From Verrucomicrobiales bacterium (GTDB lineage: Bacteria; Verrucomicrobiota; Verrucomicrobiia; Verrucomicrobiales; DEV007), in contig JANQVJ010000015.1 in the NCBI GenBank assembly GCA_030730365.1, positions 1 through 39,917 on the forward strand: a stretch of 39,917 nucleotides of DNA, written 5' to 3'. Made by a program: the position numbers and the translations under genes. The notes below the pieces were generated by a model, which ran no database searches, had not been told where the DNA came from, and worked only from the letters and a program-made list of their open reading frames with translations. Shown piece by piece: positions 6,359 through 32,647 of this stretch. Positions within the stretch are counted from its first letter, which is position 1. The number at the start of each line of letters is the position of its first letter.

Positions 6359-6549
6359 TTACTGCCCGGCTCCGAATTTGCCTTTCAGCTCGGGGCTGAG
6401 GGTTGACTTGTTGACCCACTCGGCAGCGGAACACGGATCGATGCTGCTCTGCGCCGTGAGCCGGCCGAGGCGCGTCGCGACTTTGGTGCCGCGCTCATTT
6501 GCGCCCTCGAAGCCCGCCGCCTGTCCACAGTAGAGGTGGCGCTGCTCCC
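6359..6549 (-). pseudogene. Truncated coding remnant of unknown identity
   Basis: The minus strand here reads about 63 codons with the strong G/C third-position bias of the real genes in this window. It ends in a proper stop at 6359-6361. The peptide contains 'HLYCGQAAGFEGANERGT' and 'AAEWVNKSTLSPELKGKF', which look like a true protein C-terminus. There is no ATG. Upstream the frame runs straight into the 33-bp tandem repeats. I do not recognise the family. The most economical reading is the 3' end of a gene whose 5' part was lost, but a small intact gene using a TTG start inside the repeats is not excluded. The gap around it (6283-6358) shows nothing else. Confidence 0.45.
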
Positions 6550-6615
6550 TTTCATTTCGAGAAAGAATGAGATAAAACAACGTTTCATTTCGAGAAAGAA
6601 TGAGATAAAACAACG
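6550..6615. repeat. Perfect 33-bp tandem duplication
   Basis: Two identical 33-bp units, 6550-6582 and 6583-6615, sit head to tail. Each contains TTTCATTTCGAGAAAG followed by AATGAGATAAAACAACG. Each unit also has an internal TCATT/AATGA inverted repeat. The block ends 13 bp before the ATG of the EF-hand gene, so it must fall in its promoter or leader. It is AT-rich against GC-rich surroundings. Confidence 0.9.
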
Positions 6616-6628
6616 CCTGCTACATATC

Positions 6629-7111
6629 ATGAAAAATCCCAGCTCCCCTGTTATTCCGCAAGTCGGAGTCGCCCTGCTCGCTTTCGCTGCAGTCGTCATG
6701 ACCTTCACCTCCGCCGCGATTCCGTTGCGGGCTGATGAGGAGGGAAAACCCCGCCCCGAAGCCGAAGGTAAAAAGGACAATCCCGGGCGCGATCGCGAGG
6801 GTGATGCCAACAAACCCAAAGAGGAAGAAGGCGCGAAGCGAAAAGAGGGCGAAGGAGACAAACCTGCCGCCGGAAAGAAGAACTCCCGCGAACAGGAGAT
6901 CTTCGACGCTTACGACAAAGACGCCGACGGCACCGTCACCGCTAAGGAAATGGAAGCGATGATGGAAGGAAAACAAAACTCCGCCGGACGCCGCGAGCTC
7001 CGCAAAGCCGTCGATCAGGCCGACAAAAATGCTGATGGGAAATTGAACCTCGAAGAGTTCGAGTTCTGGTATAAGACCGGTCGATTCGATCCCGACGCGG
7101 AGAACCGCTGA
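6629..7111 (+). CDS. Secreted EF-hand calcium-binding protein
   Basis: A 160-residue protein with a Sec-type signal region ('QVGVALLAFAAVVMTFTSAA', cleavage likely near residue 35). A highly charged low-complexity Lys/Glu-rich linker (about 36-85) follows, then two EF-hand loops: 'DKDADGTVTAKE' and 'DKNADGKLNLEE'. Both keep acidic or Asn residues at positions 1, 3 and 5 and Glu at 12, so both should bind Ca2+. Exported proteins with such EF-hand pairs are common in Verrucomicrobia and Planctomycetes; their role is not known. The ATG at 6629 is preferred because it gives the signal peptide. An upstream in-frame GTG would add residues encoded by the tandem repeat. No ribosome binding site is visible. 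Confidence 0.85.
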   Translation: MKNPSSPVIPQVGVALLAFAAVVMTFTSAAIPLRADEEGKPRPEAEGKKDNPGRDREGDANKPKEEEGAKRKEGEGDKPAAGKKNSREQEIFDAYDKDADGTVTAKEMEAMMEGKQNSAGRRELRKAVDQADKNADGKLNLEEFEFWYKTGRFDPDAENR

Positions 7112-7217
7112 GCGGTAAGGCCGGCCGCAGAAATTGCCAATCTTTCCCCGCGTTCGCAGGACCGACGCCGCTACGGGGATGGAGCGCGAACCTCTCTGTT
7201 CACGTTTTCGCCCGCGA

Positions 7218-8699
7218 TCACCGAACGCCCTCGACTTCGAGACCGATGGCGTAGAATCCGGTCCTTGCGGTCACGTAGAGAGTCTTCCCGACGAGAAGAC
7301 AATTCGCGGGGCCTTCGGGGACGGTGAGTCGCAGCACCTCTTTGCCCTCGGGCGAAAAGCCGATGACCTCGTCCTTCCAGGTCACGTAGAAGTTGCCGAG
7401 CTTGTCCATCGTCAGGCCATCGCTGCCGACCGCGGCGATCTCGCGTTTGTTGCTGAGCTTGCCGGGTTCGGCGACGTCGTAGGCGAAGATCTTCTCCGCA
7501 CCGGGGTCAGCGATGTAGAGGATGCGGCTGTCGGGGGACATGATGACTCCGTTCGGCTTCACAAGGTCGGCCGCGACCTGCGTGAGTTTGCCGCCGCGGT
7601 CGAGGTAATAGACCGCCTCGACATCGATCTCGCGGTCGTCACCACTGCCGTAACGGGGATCGGTGAGGTAAAAGCCGCCGGTGCCGTCGGGGACGAGATC
7701 ATTGGGACTGTTGAGTTTTTTCCCGTCAAATTTTTCAGCGATGACGGTAACCTTTCCATCGACATCGGTCCGCGTGACGCGGCGGGCGCCGCCTTCGCAG
7801 GCAATGAGAGCACCGGCCGGGGTGAAGAAAAGCCCGTTCGCCTTGCCGCTCTGCTCGCGGAAGACGGTCGTTTCTTTGCTCGCCGGATCGTAGACGTGGA
7901 TGCGCTCGTTCGGGATGTCCGAGAAATAGATTTTGCCATCGGGAGCGAGGGCGGGGCCTTCGGTGAACTTGAATCCTTCGGCGAGCTTGCGGAATTCGGC
8001 ACCTTCTTTGACGAGAGGACCCTCGTGGGTATAGGGCTTCGGATCGGGCGTGCGGTAGTCGGTCGACTCGCCGAGATCCTGAATCCTGACATTGCGATAG
8101 CGAACCTGGATGGCCTCTTCGCGGTTGCCGATGCCGTGGACCTGGAGGGCGATGAAGCCGGTCGCGGTCATGTCGTCGGTGAGGTTAGCGGCGGGGACTC
8201 CATTGACGAAAGTGCGGATGCGGTCACCGATGGCCTCGATCCGGTAGTGGTTCCAGTCGTTCTGCTTGAAGGCATAGCGGGCCGCCGGATTATCGGAGAG
8301 ATCGTTGAGCCAGCCGCGACGCCCTTCGTCGTAGATGCCACCGCTCCAGCCGCGGTCGGCGGGATCGATCTCAACCTGGTAACCGTGGACCTGGCCGTTT
8401 TTGTAATCAGGGAGACTGTTCGAGCGGATCTGGACGCCGCAATTCAAGGTGGGATCGACCTTGTATTCGACCTCGAGGATGAAGTTCGCGTAATTCCTGT
8501 CGGTGCAGAGAAAGGAGTTCGGCGTTTTCGGGACGGTCGTGCCGACGATGACACCGTCTTCGACGGAGTATTTGGCGACGCCGCCACGCTGGGTCCAGCC
8601 GTCGAGATTTTCCCCGTTAAAGAGATCGACCCATTGACCCGGTTCGTCGGAATGAGCGAGTAAAGGAATGGCGAGGAAGGCAAGGAAGAGTTTTTTCAT
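7218..8699 (-). CDS. Exported DUF1080 / SMP-30 gluconolactonase-like fusion protein
   Basis: A 493-residue protein with a short Sec signal peptide (MKKLFLAFLAIPLLAHS). The first half (about 20-205) is a DUF1080 domain (laminin-G-like, 3-keto-disaccharide hydrolase family): 'WVDLFNGENLDGWTQRGG', 'NFILEVEYKV', 'NDWNHYRIEAIGDRIRTFVN' and 'GFIALQVHG'. The second half (about 230-493) is an SMP-30/gluconolactonase six-bladed propeller: 'AEGFKFTEGPALAPDGKIYF', 'NSPNDLVPDGTGGFYLTDPR', 'PNGVIMSPDSRILYIADPG' and 'AVGSDGLTMDKLGNFYVTW'. The metal-site Glu, Asn and Asp positions appear present. The likely role is periplasmic hydrolysis of sugar lactones or oxidised disaccharides. The ATG at 8699 is chosen for its signal peptide; the reading frame stays open about 59 codons further upstream without similarity. 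Confidence 0.88.
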   Translation of the reverse strand: MKKLFLAFLAIPLLAHSDEPGQWVDLFNGENLDGWTQRGGVAKYSVEDGVIVGTTVPKTPNSFLCTDRNYANFILEVEYKVDPTLNCGVQIRSNSLPDYKNGQVHGYQVEIDPADRGWSGGIYDEGRRGWLNDLSDNPAARYAFKQNDWNHYRIEAIGDRIRTFVNGVPAANLTDDMTATGFIALQVHGIGNREEAIQVRYRNVRIQDLGESTDYRTPDPKPYTHEGPLVKEGAEFRKLAEGFKFTEGPALAPDGKIYFSDIPNERIHVYDPASKETTVFREQSGKANGLFFTPAGALIACEGGARRVTRTDVDGKVTVIAEKFDGKKLNSPNDLVPDGTGGFYLTDPRYGSGDDREIDVEAVYYLDRGGKLTQVAADLVKPNGVIMSPDSRILYIADPGAEKIFAYDVAEPGKLSNKREIAAVGSDGLTMDKLGNFYVTWKDEVIGFSPEGKEVLRLTVPEGPANCLLVGKTLYVTARTGFYAIGLEVEGVR

Positions 8700-8878
8700 C
8701 GTCGGTGGGAGCGAGGTTTCGAATTCGACAGAGTGGCGGGTTACCACGAATCGCGCTCCATGACAAGTGAATCCGCAGGCGGGATGCGGGATCACGCGGA
8801 GCGGGAGAGGGAGGGAAAAAAGAGACTTTGAAGAAAAATAGTTGAGGTTAAAACGTCTAGCCTGAGCGTCCATCACCT

Positions 8879-8897
8879 GTCAGGTCATCGACCTGAC
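8879..8897. promoter_or_regulatory. Perfect 7-bp inverted repeat upstream of the GH-GT2 gene
   Basis: GTCAGGT (8879-8885), spacer CATCG, ACCTGAC (8891-8897). The site is 37 bp upstream of the ATG of the glycosyltransferase fusion and about 180 bp from the divergent DUF1080/SMP-30 start. It has the size and symmetry of a dimeric repressor operator, or it could form a small RNA hairpin in the leader. No regulator gene lies nearby. Confidence 0.4.
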
Positions 8898-8934
8898 CCT
8901 GTTAACTCCTCCATCTCTGTCTGCCTTTTTCTCG

Positions 8935-11421
8935 ATGCCTTCCTCCGATTTTCCCGTTTCCGCGATTACCGACCCGCTCCGAGTGTCAGGCAAGTTTTTT
9001 CGGGCCGGCAGCGAGGTCGTGATGATACGGGCAGTCACCTTCGGTCCCTTTCCTGCGGGGGCCTTTCCCGACGAAGGTCGGGCGCAGCTCGGGCGCATCC
9101 GCGACCAGCTCGGGGCGAACGCGCTGCGACTCTACGAGATCCCGTCGCTCGAGTTCATGCACGCGTGTGCGGGGGCGGGTCTGCGGGTGTTCATCACGAT
9201 TCCCTGGTCCCAGCATGTCGACTTTTTGAGCGAGCGCAGTGCCCTCGCGGCGGCGGATCAGTTGCTGATCGAGACGGTCGAGCGTTTTCGCGGACACCCG
9301 GCCCTGGGGGGGTATTTTGTGGGGAACGAGATCGAGACGACGCTGGTGCGCTGGATGGGTGCCGCGCGGGTCGTTGCGCAGATCGAGCGACTTATCGATC
9401 TTGGTCACGCCAGTGATCCGGGCACGCTTTTCGCCTACGCGAACTATCCCAGCACGGAGTATCTGCTTCCGCAGAATCAGGATTTTGTAGCCTTCAATCT
9501 ATACCTCGAGGACAAAAACTCGCTCTCGTCCTATCTCGCCCGCCTGCAGAACCTCGCGGGGGACAAGCCGCTCTTTATCTCAGAGTTCGGCGCCGATGCC
9601 CGCACCCATGGGGAGCTGGGGCAGGCCGGCATACTCGAATGGTATCTCGAGTCGGGCGGTGCTGCTGGGGTGGCAGGCTCGACTATTTTTGCCTGGAGCG
9701 ATCTCTGGCAGCGCGGCGGGGCGACGGTGGAGGACTGGGAGTTCGGGCTGACGCGTCGTGATCATTCGACTCGCCCTGCGGTCGATGTGGTGCGCGAGGC
9801 GTGGGGGCAGTGGAATACCCCTGCTGATGGGATTATTCTAGCAGAGACGCCTCTGGTCACGGTCATTGTCTGTACTTACAAGGGCAGCGCAACGCTGGTG
9901 GAATGTCTCGATTCGCTGCTCGCACTGGAATATCCGTCGGTCGAACTCATTCTCGTGAATGACGGGGCCGATATCCGTGTGGAAGAGCTGGCGCGGGCCT
10001 ACGAAGCGATCCGCTACCTAGCAGTGGAGCACGGCGGCCTGAGTTCGGCTCGCAATGCGGGAGCGGCGGTGGCTCGCGGGGAGATCCTTGTGTATACGGA
10101 CGACGACTGTATCGCGGAGCCGGATTGGCTGAAGTGGATCGTGAAACTTTTTTCCGAAGACCCGATGATCGGGGCGGTAGGTGGTCCTAACATCCCGCCG
10201 CAGGCGGAAACCGCAACGCAGGCCCGGGTGGCGGCGGCACCGGGCGGGCCGGTCCATGTCCTTCTGAGCGATACTCGGGCGGAGCATCTTCCGGGGTGCA
10301 ACTTCGCGGTGCGCAAATCGGTCTTTGATGAAGTCGGGGGATTTAATCCGGTCTTCCGCTCGGCGGGGGACGATGTCGATTTTTGCTGGCGGGTTCTCGC
10401 AGCGGGCTATGAGCTGGGCTTTCACCCCGCGGCGTTTGTGTGGCATCATCGACGTTTTTCCTACGGGGCCTACTTTCGTCAACAGGTGGGCTACGGCCGG
10501 GCCGAGGCGCTGCTGATGCCTATCCATACAGAGCGTTTCCGCGGCGCGGGGGGTGCGATCTGGCAAGGGCAGGTCTATGCTTCGCGCGGGATGCGGGGCG
10601 GGTCGTTCGTCTACCACGGGCGCTATGGTCATGAGCCTTTTCAAATGATCTATCCGGGTGGGGAATCAGGTTTATCCGAGGTGGCGCTCCACGTCATTTG
10701 GTGGATCGGGATTACAGGCCTGGCGATCGGCGGAGTCTTTCTGCCCCCGCTGTTGGTCGTGGTCGCGCTGATGATTGCGATTTCACTGCGTGTGGCACTG
10801 GGGCGGGCGGGACGCGCCGTGATCGAGCCGGGGTTTGACTCGACGAGTTCCCGGCTCACCCTCGCGGGACTCATCCTCGTGCAGGGGATCTTGCGCAGCG
10901 GGGCGCGTCTCCTCGCGGGATGGAGGTGGGTGAACTGGGGGGAGAGCGCGCAGTTCGTGGGAGGTAAAGCGGTTGGTAAGATTGCCTCGGGCTGGTGGAA
11001 GCTGGGCGACGAAAAATCCTACTGGAGCAGTGAAGGCGTTGGTCGCGAAGAGTTCCTCGCCGCAATCCTGCATCATTTCACCGGGGCGGTCGATGATGCC
11101 ACGGGTAAGACGGACATCATTCTGAAAAAGGGCTTGTTCTGGAACTGGGCCGCAGTCACGGCGACTGAGTATCATGAGGGACGGGGACGACTGACAAGGC
11201 TGCGCCTCCTCGCGAGACCCGAGAGGGTCACCCGTCTCATCGTGCTGCCGCTCCTGACCCTGACGCCGATCGCAGTGATGTTGGGATTCGGGTTTAAGAG
11301 CGAGTTGCTGACGCTGGGGCTGCTCTACCTGACTGTTTCGATAGCGGCGAAGACCTTTATGTGGCTGCAGCGGCCGCAGTTTAATCGCATCGCCCAATCG
11401 GTCGGACTGAAGCCGCTCTAA
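8935..11421 (+). CDS. Glycoside hydrolase-like domain fused to a membrane family 2 glycosyltransferase
   Basis: An 828-residue protein. Residues about 1-295 look like a clan GH-A TIM barrel: 'GANALRLYEIPS', acid/base candidate Glu132 in 'GYFVGNEIE', nucleophile candidate Glu217 in 'KPLFISEFGA', and 'STIFAWSDLWQRGG'. Residues about 305-560 are a GT2 domain: 'PLVTVIVCTYKGS', 'LILVNDGAD', 'YTDDDCIAEPDW' (DxD-type), 'GCNFAVRKSVFDEVGGFN' and 'AGDDVDFCWRVLAAGYELGF'. Hydrophobic segments follow near 583-625 and 760-810, so the protein is probably in the inner membrane. GH-GT2 fusions such as the GH17-GT2 glucan synthases of Proteobacteria make and remodel beta-glucans. The analogy is structural only and the product is unknown. 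No Shine-Dalgarno sequence. Confidence 0.82.
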   Translation: MPSSDFPVSAITDPLRVSGKFFRAGSEVVMIRAVTFGPFPAGAFPDEGRAQLGRIRDQLGANALRLYEIPSLEFMHACAGAGLRVFITIPWSQHVDFLSERSALAAADQLLIETVERFRGHPALGGYFVGNEIETTLVRWMGAARVVAQIERLIDLGHASDPGTLFAYANYPSTEYLLPQNQDFVAFNLYLEDKNSLSSYLARLQNLAGDKPLFISEFGADARTHGELGQAGILEWYLESGGAAGVAGSTIFAWSDLWQRGGATVEDWEFGLTRRDHSTRPAVDVVREAWGQWNTPADGIILAETPLVTVIVCTYKGSATLVECLDSLLALEYPSVELILVNDGADIRVEELARAYEAIRYLAVEHGGLSSARNAGAAVARGEILVYTDDDCIAEPDWLKWIVKLFSEDPMIGAVGGPNIPPQAETATQARVAAAPGGPVHVLLSDTRAEHLPGCNFAVRKSVFDEVGGFNPVFRSAGDDVDFCWRVLAAGYELGFHPAAFVWHHRRFSYGAYFRQQVGYGRAEALLMPIHTERFRGAGGAIWQGQVYASRGMRGGSFVYHGRYGHEPFQMIYPGGESGLSEVALHVIWWIGITGLAIGGVFLPPLLVVVALMIAISLRVALGRAGRAVIEPGFDSTSSRLTLAGLILVQGILRSGARLLAGWRWVNWGESAQFVGGKAVGKIASGWWKLGDEKSYWSSEGVGREEFLAAILHHFTGAVDDATGKTDIILKKGLFWNWAAVTATEYHEGRGRLTRLRLLARPERVTRLIVLPLLTLTPIAVMLGFGFKSELLTLGLLYLTVSIAAKTFMWLQRPQFNRIAQSVGLKPL

Positions 11422-29525: not shown

Positions 29526-31025
29526 ATGTTACAACTGCTGGAGGTTTCTGGAATCGGGAAGTCATTTCCCGGCGTGCGCGCTCTGCATGAGGTCAGCTTC
29601 GCCGTGGGCGAGGGCGAGGTCGTCGCCGTGCTCGGGGAAAACGGGGCAGGGAAAAGCACCCTCATGAAAATCCTCGCCGGCGTGCAGCGGCCCGATACGG
29701 GGACGATACGGATGGAGGGAAATGAAATCGCGATTCGCTCTGTCGAGGAAGGTCTCAGCCATGGCATCGCCCTCATTCATCAGGAACTCAACCTCGCGAC
29801 CAATCTCAGCATCGGCGCTAATCTCTTCCTCGGTCGCGAACCCACCCGCTTCGGATTGATCGACGAAAATGAGATAGCGTCCCGCTCGCGCCAGTTTCTC
29901 GATCGCGTCGGACTCGAACTCAGTCCTTCGACTCTCGTCGGCGATCTCCCGATCGGACGACAGCAACTCGTCGAGATCGCCAAGGCTCTCACGACCGACG
30001 CCCGTATCCTCATCATGGACGAGCCGACCTCGAGTCTCTCGCTCCAGGAGACGGAACGACTCTTCGAAGTCGTCAAAGACCTGCGCTCCAGCGGAGTCAG
30101 CATCATTTATATCTCCCATCGTCTCAGCGAAGTAATCGAACTCGCCGACCGGGTCGTGGTGCTACGCGACGGGGAAAACGCCGGCAACCTCGAGCGGGGC
30201 GGGATCACTCACGATGCCATGGTCAGCCTAATGGTGGGACGCGACCTTTCCCAGTTTTACGCCCACACCCCCGAGCCGCCCGGAGACGTCGTTCTGTCCG
30301 TCTCGGGCTTGCGGACGCCCGCGCATCCGGGGCATGAGATCAGCTTCGAATTGAGCGCCGGAGAGATCGTAGGCCTCGCCGGACTCGTCGGGGCAGGACG
30401 CACCGAGCTGCTCACGACCCTCTTCGGGATCACTCCCGCGTTGCAGGGGCGGATCACGGTGGCGTCAGTGGAAAAGCGAATCACCGATCCCCGTGCCGCG
30501 ATTGCCGCAGGGATTGCACTCGTGCCCGAAGATCGAAAGCAGCAGGGACTCATCATCGACATGGCTGTCTCCGATAACATGAGCCTCGCCTCCCTCGGGC
30601 GCGATCAGCACTCGGGCTTTCTCAACTTCGCGGCCGAGCGCCGCATCTCTGACGAGATGATCCGAAAAATGCGGATCAAAACTCCCTCGCCGCGGCAGGT
30701 CGTGCGTTTCCTCTCGGGCGGGAACCAGCAGAAAGTCGTCCTCGGCAAATGGCTCGCGATGAAGCCGTCCGTCCTCCTCCTTGACGAGCCGACCCGGGGC
30801 ATCGACATCGGGGCCAAGCAGGAGATCTATGCCCTCATGGAAGAGCTCTCCGGTGAAGGCGTCGCGATTCTTTTCGCCTCTAGCGAGATGGAGGAAGTCA
30901 TCGGTATGTCCGATCGCGTCCTTGTGATGCACGAAGGACGACTCGCCGGCGAACTCCCGCGAGCGGAACTCGGCGAAGAGTCCATTATGCGGCTCGCGAC
31001 CGGTCGCGGAGTGCATGCGGCGTGA
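29526..31025 (+). CDS. RbsA-type sugar ABC transporter ATP-binding protein
   Basis: A 499-residue protein with two fused nucleotide-binding domains, the RbsA/MglA layout. The first has Walker A 'GENGAGKST' (37-45), Q-loop '[20 protein letters not shown]', '[11 protein letters not shown]' as Walker B, and 'ISHRLSEV'. The second has the degenerate Walker A '[11 protein letters not shown]' typical of the family, the signature '[17 protein letters not shown]', and Walker B '[18 protein letters not shown]'. It would power uptake of a monosaccharide or nucleoside. No permease or binding-protein gene is in the window, so its partners are elsewhere or lost. The stop is followed at once by an arsM-like remnant in the same frame. 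Confidence 0.95.
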
Positions 31026-31233
31026 GGTTCGAGGTTTCTGAGTGCCTTCGAAGAAGCTGGTTTCCACGGCATTGAAATCCTCAAGCGGGGCATCGAGTCC
31101 TCGCAGACAGTCGAGGGGATCGAGTTCCGCGGCGTTAGTATTCAGGCATGGAAGGGAAACTAGGGGCATGGACTATCGCGCGACGACGGAGGCATCACCG
31201 TTTTGTGAGGAGGGCTCCGCACGTTGTTGCTGA
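31026..31233 (+). pseudogene. arsM: ArsM-like methyltransferase remnant (C-terminal fragment, internally deleted)
   Basis: Two adjoining frames encode pieces of the C-terminal part of one protein family. Frame 1 (31026-31163) reads 'RFLSAFEEAGFHGIEILKRG' and then 'QTVEGIEFRGVSIQAWKGN' before a TAG stop. These match ArsM-type methyltransferases, which have 'GFxGIEIL' and 'VEGIEFRSVTVxAxKGK' there. Frame 2 (about 31149-31233) reads 'GRETRGMDYRATTEASPF' and ends 'EEGSARCC', matching the far C-terminus with its terminal CC. About 80 residues between these points and the whole N-terminal catalytic half are missing. It is therefore a relic. It directly follows the ABC ATPase stop and lies just upstream of the arsenosugar-type glycosyltransferase fusion. 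Confidence 0.65.
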
Positions 31234-31315
31234 GATCCGCGACTCTCAGAGTGAAGTCGTCTGAATACGACTGGTCACTGAATCGGTTGTGAACTACTGC
31301 TGCTGACGATATCCC

Positions 31316-32647
31316 ATGCCCGCCGCCATCGTCATATTTACTCGTCTGCCCGAAGCGGGTAAGGCCAAAACGAGAATGATCCCCGCACTCGGTCCGGAGG
31401 GGGCGGCGGACCTCCAGCGGCGCATGACACGCCTCGTTGTGGCGAGGGTGTCGGCTTACTGTAGTGGGACGGGGGGGCGGCTCGTTGTCGCCTGTGAAGG
31501 CGGCAGTCCCGCGGCGATGCAGGAGTGGCTCGGTCCCGGTCCTCTCTATGTATCGCAGAGGGGAGTGACACTCGGGGACCGTCTCCTCCATGCAGCCCGG
31601 GCCGAGCTGGATCGCGGGGCGGAAAAGGTCATCCTCATTGGTGCTGATTGTCCCCGTCTATGCGCGGAGCATCTCCGCCGGGCCGAGTACGCGCTGGAGG
31701 ATACTGATCTCGTTTTCGGCCCTGCCGACGACGGAGGTTATTATCTGATGGGAATGAAGCGGGTCATTCCGTCGCTCTTTATCGACATCCCCTGGGGTAG
31801 TGGGACGGTTCTGGCGCGCTCTCTCGAGCGCGCGGGAGAGGCGGGACTATCGCCTTTCCTCATCGAGACGCTACCCGATGTGGATGATCCGGATGACCTC
31901 GCCGACGCAGTAGTGGCGCTGGAGGCTGCAGCAAAGGTTTCGGTCATCGTAGCGACTCTCAACGAGGCGAAGAATCTCGGACGGCTCCTTCCGCTGCTTC
32001 GCCGTGGCGGGATCAGTGAGATCATCGTCTCCGACGGCGGCAGCGGTGATGGGACCCTCGCGATCGCCTCGTCTCACGGAGCTCGCATCGTCTCGGCGGA
32101 CCGGGGGAGGGCTAGCCAGATGAACGCGGGGGCGTCGCTCGCCTCGGGAGAGTATCTCCTTTTTCTCCACGCCGACACCGATCCTCCCGAAGGATTCGCG
32201 AGCCTGATTCGCGAAGAGCTCGACAGGCCCGGCATCGTCGCGGGAGCGTTCGGATTTCACCTCCGTGAACCGGTTTGCTGTGCCGGGTTGATCGAGAGCC
32301 TCGTTTCTCTCCGGTGCCGGATCCTCCGTTTGCCATACGGGGATCAGGGGCTCTTCATGCGACGCGATCTTTTTTTGACTCTTGGCGGGTATCCGGAACA
32401 CCCCATCCTCGAAGATCTGATCCTGGTGCGCCGGCTCCGGAATCTCGGACGGGTAGTCATAACGCGGGAAAAAGCTCGAACATCCTCACGGCGGTGGCGC
32501 GAGGGCGGAGTTGTCGCGACATTCTTGCGGCATTCCGCCATTCTTCTCGCTTACCATGCCGGCGTCTCTCCCGAGCGAATCGCTGTTTCCATCATCTCTC
32601 GGGACAATAAATGTCGCGGCCGCGACATTTATTGTCCCGAGAGATAG
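31316..32647 (+). CDS. Fused TIGR04282-TIGR04283 arsenosugar-type glycosyltransferase
   Basis: A 443-residue two-domain protein. Residues 1-205 form a DUF2064/TIGR04282 nucleotidyl-glycosyltransferase-like domain ('AAIVIFTRLPEAGKAKTRMI', 'VILIGADCPRL', 'FGPADDGGYYLMGMKR'). Residues 208-430 form a GT2 domain of the TIGR04283 type ('VSVIVATLNEAKNLGRLLP', 'IIVSDGGSGDGTLAIA', 'RASQMNAGASLASGEYLLFL', 'HADTDPPEGF', 'LPYGDQGLFMRRDLFLTLGG'). Both families are tied to arsenosugar biosynthesis and radical-SAM selenodomain loci, usually as separate genes. The last 17 residues and the stop are encoded inside a 52-bp perfect palindrome, so the natural C-terminus may have been altered. The upstream ArsM relic supports the arsenosugar link. 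Confidence 0.88.
   Translation: MPAAIVIFTRLPEAGKAKTRMIPALGPEGAADLQRRMTRLVVARVSAYCSGTGGRLVVACEGGSPAAMQEWLGPGPLYVSQRGVTLGDRLLHAARAELDRGAEKVILIGADCPRLCAEHLRRAEYALEDTDLVFGPADDGGYYLMGMKRVIPSLFIDIPWGSGTVLARSLERAGEAGLSPFLIETLPDVDDPDDLADAVVALEAAAKVSVIVATLNEAKNLGRLLPLLRRGGISEIIVSDGGSGDGTLAIASSHGARIVSADRGRASQMNAGASLASGEYLLFLHADTDPPEGFASLIREELDRPGIVAGAFGFHLREPVCCAGLIESLVSLRCRILRLPYGDQGLFMRRDLFLTLGGYPEHPILEDLILVRRLRNLGRVVITREKARTSSRRWREGGVVATFLRHSAILLAYHAGVSPERIAVSIISRDNKCRGRDIYCPER
32594..32645. repeat. Perfect 52-bp palindrome
   Basis: Every base from 32594 to 32619 pairs with 32645 back to 32620. The arms are 26 bp with no loop; the centre is GTCGCGGCCGCGAC. It covers the last 17 codons of the glycosyltransferase fusion and ends in its stop codon, 53 bp before mnmA. 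It could act as a strong transcription terminator, although no T-tract follows, or be an inserted palindromic element. Confidence 0.95.

Follow-up and report, generated by a model that had tools for sequence, protein, structure and literature searches.

The window analyzed here, 39,917 nucleotides of contig C15 of a Verrucomicrobiales genome (G000), holds what are, judging from the sequence, the remains of an arsenosugar locus, in which arsM survives as a dead 3′ end directly before an intact fused glycosyltransferase. The interpretation we favor, at roughly even confidence, is that arsM has been lost while the later steps of arsenosugar synthesis persist, putatively acting on imported dimethylarsenic. 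The features concerned are:

29526..31025, + strand: sugar-type ABC transporter ATPase gene, with its stop codon directly before the relic
31026..31160, + strand: ArsM relic piece 1, matching residues 267-309 of the 414-codon ArsM frame of a congener (G022) and ending in TAG (31158-31160)
31150..31160, + strand: putative internal-deletion junction, where pieces 1 and 2 overlap by a few bases of short shared sequence
31153..31233, + strand: ArsM relic piece 2, the Cys-rich C-terminal tail of ArsM, in a different frame from piece 1 and ending in TGA
31316..32647, + strand: intact fused TIGR04282-TIGR04283 glycosyltransferase, 443 aa, from NCBIfam profile matches
31328..31900, + strand: TIGR04282/DUF2064 domain (CofC-like), residues 5-195, 196 bits (cut-off 134)
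31937..32584, + strand: TIGR04283/GT2 domain, residues 208-423, 222 bits (cut-off 182)
32594..32645, no strand: 52-bp perfect palindrome that supplies the 17 C-terminal residues of the glycosyltransferase and, with its last base, the first base of the stop codon
32699..33784, + strand: mnmA (tRNA 2-thiouridine synthase), the downstream neighbor

The sequence-only reading had described two frame-shifted pieces matching the C-terminal parts of ArsM-like methyltransferases, with about 80 residues lost between them, and both points hold. Sequence comparison confirms positions 31026-31233 as the dead 3′ end of arsM. Piece 1 matches profile positions 241-280 of 356 in the NCBIfam ArsM model NF040538 (E 2.6e-4; 20.3 bits, far below the curated full-length cut-off of 500 bits), and the 63-residue ORF containing piece 2 gave no match in the NCBIfam profile search. 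Translated search with the G022 ArsM frame, run against the window alone with composition correction off, matched both pieces, at 31035-31196 (E 7e-15, 35/54 identical, with the alignment reading through the stop codon) and at 31099-31230 (E 6e-7, 18/44 identical); under default tblastn settings, piece 2 is found at E 1.4e-5. When the G022 ArsM protein was searched against the entire G000 assembly, the relic was recovered at E 5.8e-15 and 1.9e-4, and the next of the eight matches stood at 1.7e-3. Piece 2 reads RETRGMDYRATTEASPFCEEGSARCC (31153-31230) and its G022 counterpart RETKGQDYSATTDASTCCDGGSGSCC, with 11 of the first 15 residues identical.

What remains of ArsM, in the numbering of the 414-codon G022 frame (whose true start is possibly codon 26), is residues 267-309 in piece 1 and 389-414, the last 26 residues, in piece 2. 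Between them, 240 nt or 80 codons have been lost relative to G022: the end of piece 1 reads WKGN-stop against WKGK in ArsM, the start of piece 2 reads RETRG against RETKG, and these two points are 240 nt apart in G022. The few-base overlap of the pieces would fit a deletion between short similar sequences. Codons 1-266 are absent as well, and the stop codon of the ABC gene lies directly upstream. The gene has lost its 5′ two thirds, the part covered by methyltransferase domain models (in G022 ArsM, Pfam matches extend from about residue 57 to no further than 251 of 388), together with the frame-shifting internal segment of ∼80 codons; no full-length ArsM frame with the N-terminal, SAM-binding methyltransferase part is left. 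The ABC ATPase gene (29526-31025) has no permease among its annotated neighbors. The deletion that took most of arsM may also have taken ABC partner genes.

We rejected the idea that this region is a conserved, intact small gene. In relatives, ArsM holds both pieces in one frame: G022, G026, G012, G009, G006, G005 and G029 each have a single ArsM match of ∼380 residues spanning them, and a conserved small gene was seen in none of the seven.

The intact protein that follows does join the two glycosyltransferase types, with both domains above their NCBIfam cut-offs, and the arsenosugar family names earlier given to ArsM and the glycosyltransferases proved right. By sequence search, solved relatives of the first domain are 3cgx, a putative nucleotide-diphospho-sugar transferase (E 6.6e-40), and, more weakly, the phosphoglycerate guanylyltransferase 7p97 (E 3.9e-5), whereas the second domain matches GT2 enzymes. 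These relatives suggest that the first half performs nucleotidyl activation and the second the transfer. The predicted structure of the fused protein is poor (mean pLDDT 58, from three sequences). Domain order is the same in the fusion of G022 and opposite in that of G029. Among the best 80 of 585 ArsS loci, both domains (>60 bits) occur on one strand within 400 bases in 23, two of which form a single frame without a stop codon: L148, in the order of the window, and L218, in the opposite order. In this sample, then, the fusion is uncommon but not unique.

The 3′ end of the glycosyltransferase gene has been rewritten by the palindrome. Twelve copies of the 36-bp palindrome core, one of them with a single changed base, are present in G000; the 32 other genus genomes searched, several of them incomplete, contain none. 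Flanks outside the core differ among copies, and the palindrome extends by 8 bases in the window copy, by 7 in another and by 0-4 in the other ten; it looks like a species-specific mobile palindromic repeat. A search for lone end pairs, as expected of insertion-element ends, found none. One isolated 18-mer half-site, mismatched at a single base, lies in an open frame (L258; C36:85021-85038) and is probably a decayed copy. Because the TIGR04283 match stops before the palindrome (at position 218 of 221), the palindrome-derived tail may be harmless; it may also be the start of glycosyltransferase decay.

The genome assembly (3.86 Mb, 81 contigs, 93.53% complete) was searched for ArsM and ArsS, with a split outcome. 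An intact ArsS lies on another contig (C56:17269-18165; TIGR04167, 423.6 bits against a cut-off of 300), with its radical-SAM CxxxCxxC motif present as CNQTCTHC. The earlier suggestion that the fused enzyme may work with an ArsM encoded elsewhere found no support: neither the models NF040538 and NF008823 nor the ArsM protein of the congener turned up an intact copy in an assembly that is 93.5% complete. The best NF040538 match there has 20.9 bits and the best NF008823 match 59.5 bits (cut-off 263). The latter (C2:12002) appears, on reading its sequence, to be an ArsR-like regulator with a methyltransferase part, and another candidate, C5:117842, is a short generic methyltransferase. Such weak matches are generic, occurring at E 0.001 in 14 of 14 control genomes for NF008823 and in 12 of 14 for NF040538.

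ArsS is above cut-off in 12 of the 36 genomes searched, G000 included, and the other 11 all have an NF040538 match of >320 bits (our own threshold, since none of the 36 reaches the curated 500), leaving G000 alone without one. ArsM and at least part of ArsS share a contig in 10 of the 11; in G005, both genes are at contig ends. Sixteen further genomes, of no established completeness, were reached via ArsS loci. Fourteen have some NF040538 match at E 1e-5, the match in G430 being of only 32.7 bits, and G429 and G440 have none. ArsS without ArsM may recur, though incomplete assemblies could explain these cases.

Rates of change, small as the numbers are, suggest that constraint has been lifted from the relic but not from the later genes. 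At the 43 positions of piece 1, G022 and the copy on contig C73 of G007 each have 31 residues in common with the relic, and L145 and L146 each have 32; at the same positions, the G007 C73 copy, L145 and L146 each share 40 with G022. Of 11 positions that do not vary among the 21 other ArsM sequences compared (one of them, L148, itself truncated), the relic has changed three. The rate test is weak here, given the small number of changes, the single outgroup used for the glycosyltransferase and the 42 residues available for the relic. For piece 1 compared with G022, the three outgroups gave 8:1 (P = 0.04), 8:1 (P = 0.04) and 5:1 (P = 0.22). The glycosyltransferase, with L148 as outgroup, has 31 changes special to G000 versus 38 to G022 (P = 0.47). 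For ArsS, the three outgroups gave 13:15, 15:15 and 19:10 against G022 and 12:14, 17:14 and 17:12 against the G007 C73 copy, none of them significant. ArsS keeps 110 of 116 columns that are invariant in five other aligned rows, and the fused protein retains 147 of the 178 columns common to G022 and L148, against 147 of 189 for the G022 protein.

ArsS lies in a setting of selenium genes. On C56 (L090, 7414-11512), senB, senA, arsS and a fatty-acid-hydroxylase gene form a row on one strand, with four bases between senB and the inferred start of senA, 54 between senA and arsS, and nine between arsS and the fatty-acid-hydroxylase gene. The row is flanked by selD and selA on one side and by tRNA-Sec, a cysteine desulfurase gene and mnmH on the other, such that arsS and the fatty-acid-hydroxylase gene sit between senBA and tRNA-Sec. 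SenB and SenA, named selenosugar synthase and selenoneine synthase after NCBIfam, are best matches that fall just below both cut-offs (294.7 of 300 and 410 of 420 bits, respectively). Rows of the selenoneine type with senB-senA beside selD and selA are also present in other genomes of the genus, e.g. G423, G424, G004, G418 and G014, but compared with the other senB-senA loci examined, only G000 has arsS and the fatty-acid-hydroxylase gene between senA and tRNA-Sec. The distance from the SenA match to the start of tRNA-Sec is ∼20 bases in G013 and G019 and ∼790 bases in G418, where a possible 182-codon frame of no known family lies between (L133, 6358-7147); this gap suggests that the position after senA may also be open to other genes. 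No tRNA-Sec was found in the stretches around SenA for L130-L132.

From this arrangement, we infer a move of arsS to the spot behind senA. Base composition gave no sign of a foreign origin for the ArsS block, and a search for the direct repeat of an integration at the tRNA end found only repeats of 13-14 nt, none at the tRNA. The closest ArsS relatives by name, among the matches listed, come from uncultured genomes, mostly Verrucomicrobiales, Akkermansiaceae, Akkermansia and Pedosphaera. A plasmid search with ArsS returned 52 records (30 listed), 47 of them Burkholderia and all <60% identical.

To what extent senA-arsS adjacency occurs elsewhere was assessed at three levels. Within the genus, SenA is found at E 1e-40 in 10 of 33 genomes (in G020 with only 170 bits), and in the nine besides G000 there is no ArsS match in the stretch around SenA, the contig of G014 ending inside SenA. 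A genome-wide ArsS search of five of the nine (all but G416, G418, G423 and G424) placed only G004 above cut-off, on another contig. Across a phylum sample of 387 genomes, SenA occurs at E 1e-60 in four (none over the cut-off) and ArsS in 22; both are present in G000 and G197, on different contigs in the latter. Among the best 80 of the 585 ArsS loci, many of them truncated at contig ends, senA is beside arsS in none; a SenA-like stretch of >50 bits is found in four, none adjacent to arsS. The nearest such stretch, in L182, is EgtB by score (535 bits, versus 379 of 420 for the SenA model) and lies next to egtD. In this betaproteobacterial locus (6521-10915), the ergothioneine genes egtD-egtB and arsS fall in a stretch of under 5 kb, and egtB is separated from arsS by a divergent msrA-like gene. 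A widespread senA-arsS arrangement is thus unsupported. Since the row stands alone among the loci examined, chance relocation of arsS is the default explanation.

Set beside known arsenosugar biosynthesis loci (arsM, arsS, TIGR04282, TIGR04283), the window is alike in having arsM sequence directly before a TIGR04282/TIGR04283 protein, with ArsS in the genome; it differs in that arsM is dead and was not found elsewhere, and in that ArsS is on another contig beside senBA. A further comparison is the G022 locus (L024), from the same genus, where a fused glycosyltransferase of the same order (59% identical) and ArsS (78% identical) are on one 15-kb contig that, unlike the window, also carries arsM and genes for a PHO4-family transporter, an LMWPc-domain protein, a DUF547 protein and a pyridine-nucleotide oxidoreductase. 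Within the window, tblastn found neither ArsS nor any of seven other genes of the G022 locus. In L148 (JAJYHY010000008.1, 'bacterium isolate DBS2-1.bin101'), a fused gene with the same domain order and 43% identity stands between a PHO4-type gene and arsS, and a truncated arsM precedes the PHO4-type gene; unlike in G000, arsS is still adjacent. The L148 arsM remainder is open for 244 aa without the N-terminal third (6684-7397), and the truncation may be an assembly fault, as the contig name gives a coverage of only 1.66. A further ArsM-like match in that genome falls in a frame of 295 aa (64 and 56 bits). A passage in PMC12159101 describes a radical SAM enzyme that adenosylates arsenic in oxo-arsenosugar biosynthesis, and one in PMC8801600 names TIGR04282 an arsenosugar gene. 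In the open-licence literature, two papers were found that name TIGR04282 and none that names TIGR04283; titles and abstract openings there yielded no description of ArsS beside SenA or of the TIGR04282-TIGR04283 fusion, and nothing on selenoneine jointly with arsenosugar.

The earlier view that methylation was lost locally while glycosyl transfer persists is consistent with the ArsM relic and the intact glycosyltransferase, and has to be widened, as ArsS persists as well. In the pathway we propose, dimethylated arsenic would be taken up from the surroundings or from neighbors as starting material, and ArsS would add a 5′-deoxyadenosyl group to dimethylarsenite. Following the loss of adenine, activation of the arsenic-bearing ribose would fall to the CofC-like half of the fusion, and its transfer to an acceptor, for instance glycerol, to the GT2 half. 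We propose this sequence of final steps on the basis of the domain families and of arsenosugar chemistry.

The main rival, which we regard as possible but somewhat unlikely, is that the whole pathway is being lost and that ArsS and the glycosyltransferase are merely not yet broken. The loss of arsM, the scatter of the remaining genes over two contigs, the palindrome-derived tail and the absence from the window of the seven other G022-locus genes searched for are what such decay would leave behind. Yet both proteins are full length and not accelerated relative to G022, while piece 1 of the relic is accelerated, significantly so with two of three outgroups. It is also conceivable that an intact arsM lies in the unassembled 6-7% of the genome, in which case the relic would be a dead duplicate of a complete pathway. 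An assembly of 81 contigs at 93.53% completeness leaves room for this, and the two arsM copies of G007 show that duplicates occur; nevertheless, neither the two ArsM models nor the ArsM protein finds anything intact, and the other 11 ArsS genomes all show ArsM, even G009, G002 and G016, which are only 69-77% complete. We consider a hidden arsM unlikely.

That the relic is an assembly or binning artefact, a chimeric join of the ABC gene and arsM, seems very improbable. The start of the relic does lie only a few bases from the stop codon of the ABC gene, in a much-divided assembly (81 contigs), but a frame change, an in-frame stop and three altered residues among 11 invariant ones are not expected from one bad join, and G+C is similar in the relic and the window (0.574 versus 0.600). 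Other chemistry for ArsS, and perhaps for the glycosyltransferase, with ArsS acting on selenium or selenoneine serving as its reductant, is suggested by the single-strand senB-senA-arsS row beside selD, selA, tRNA-Sec and mnmH. We judge it improbable: the row was seen in this genome only, with no ArsS match in the stretches around SenA in the nine other SenA genomes of the genus (the G014 contig ending inside SenA, and SenA being weak in G020) and no senA beside arsS in the best 80 of 585 ArsS loci, and the arsenosugar model still recognizes ArsS, at 423 bits. A combined version, quite improbable in our view, is that ArsS joined the selenoneine operon. Selenoneine, a selenol, would there reduce imported pentavalent dimethylarsenic to the trivalent ArsS substrate, or ArsS would adenosylate a selenium compound, and ArsM loss would mark a switch from making to scavenging dimethylarsenic. 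If true, selenium and arsenic enzymes would here make up a metalloid-sugar operon.

On the reading we favor, loss of arsM with persistence of the later steps, the locus would be a natural example of arsenosugar synthesis that has lost its first step and retains intact later enzymes. It makes testable both the sharing of the pathway among bacteria by dimethylarsenic exchange and the real substrates of TIGR04282 and TIGR04283 enzymes. ArsS behind senBA, so far in one genome only, is a lead for a metabolic link between arsenic and selenium.
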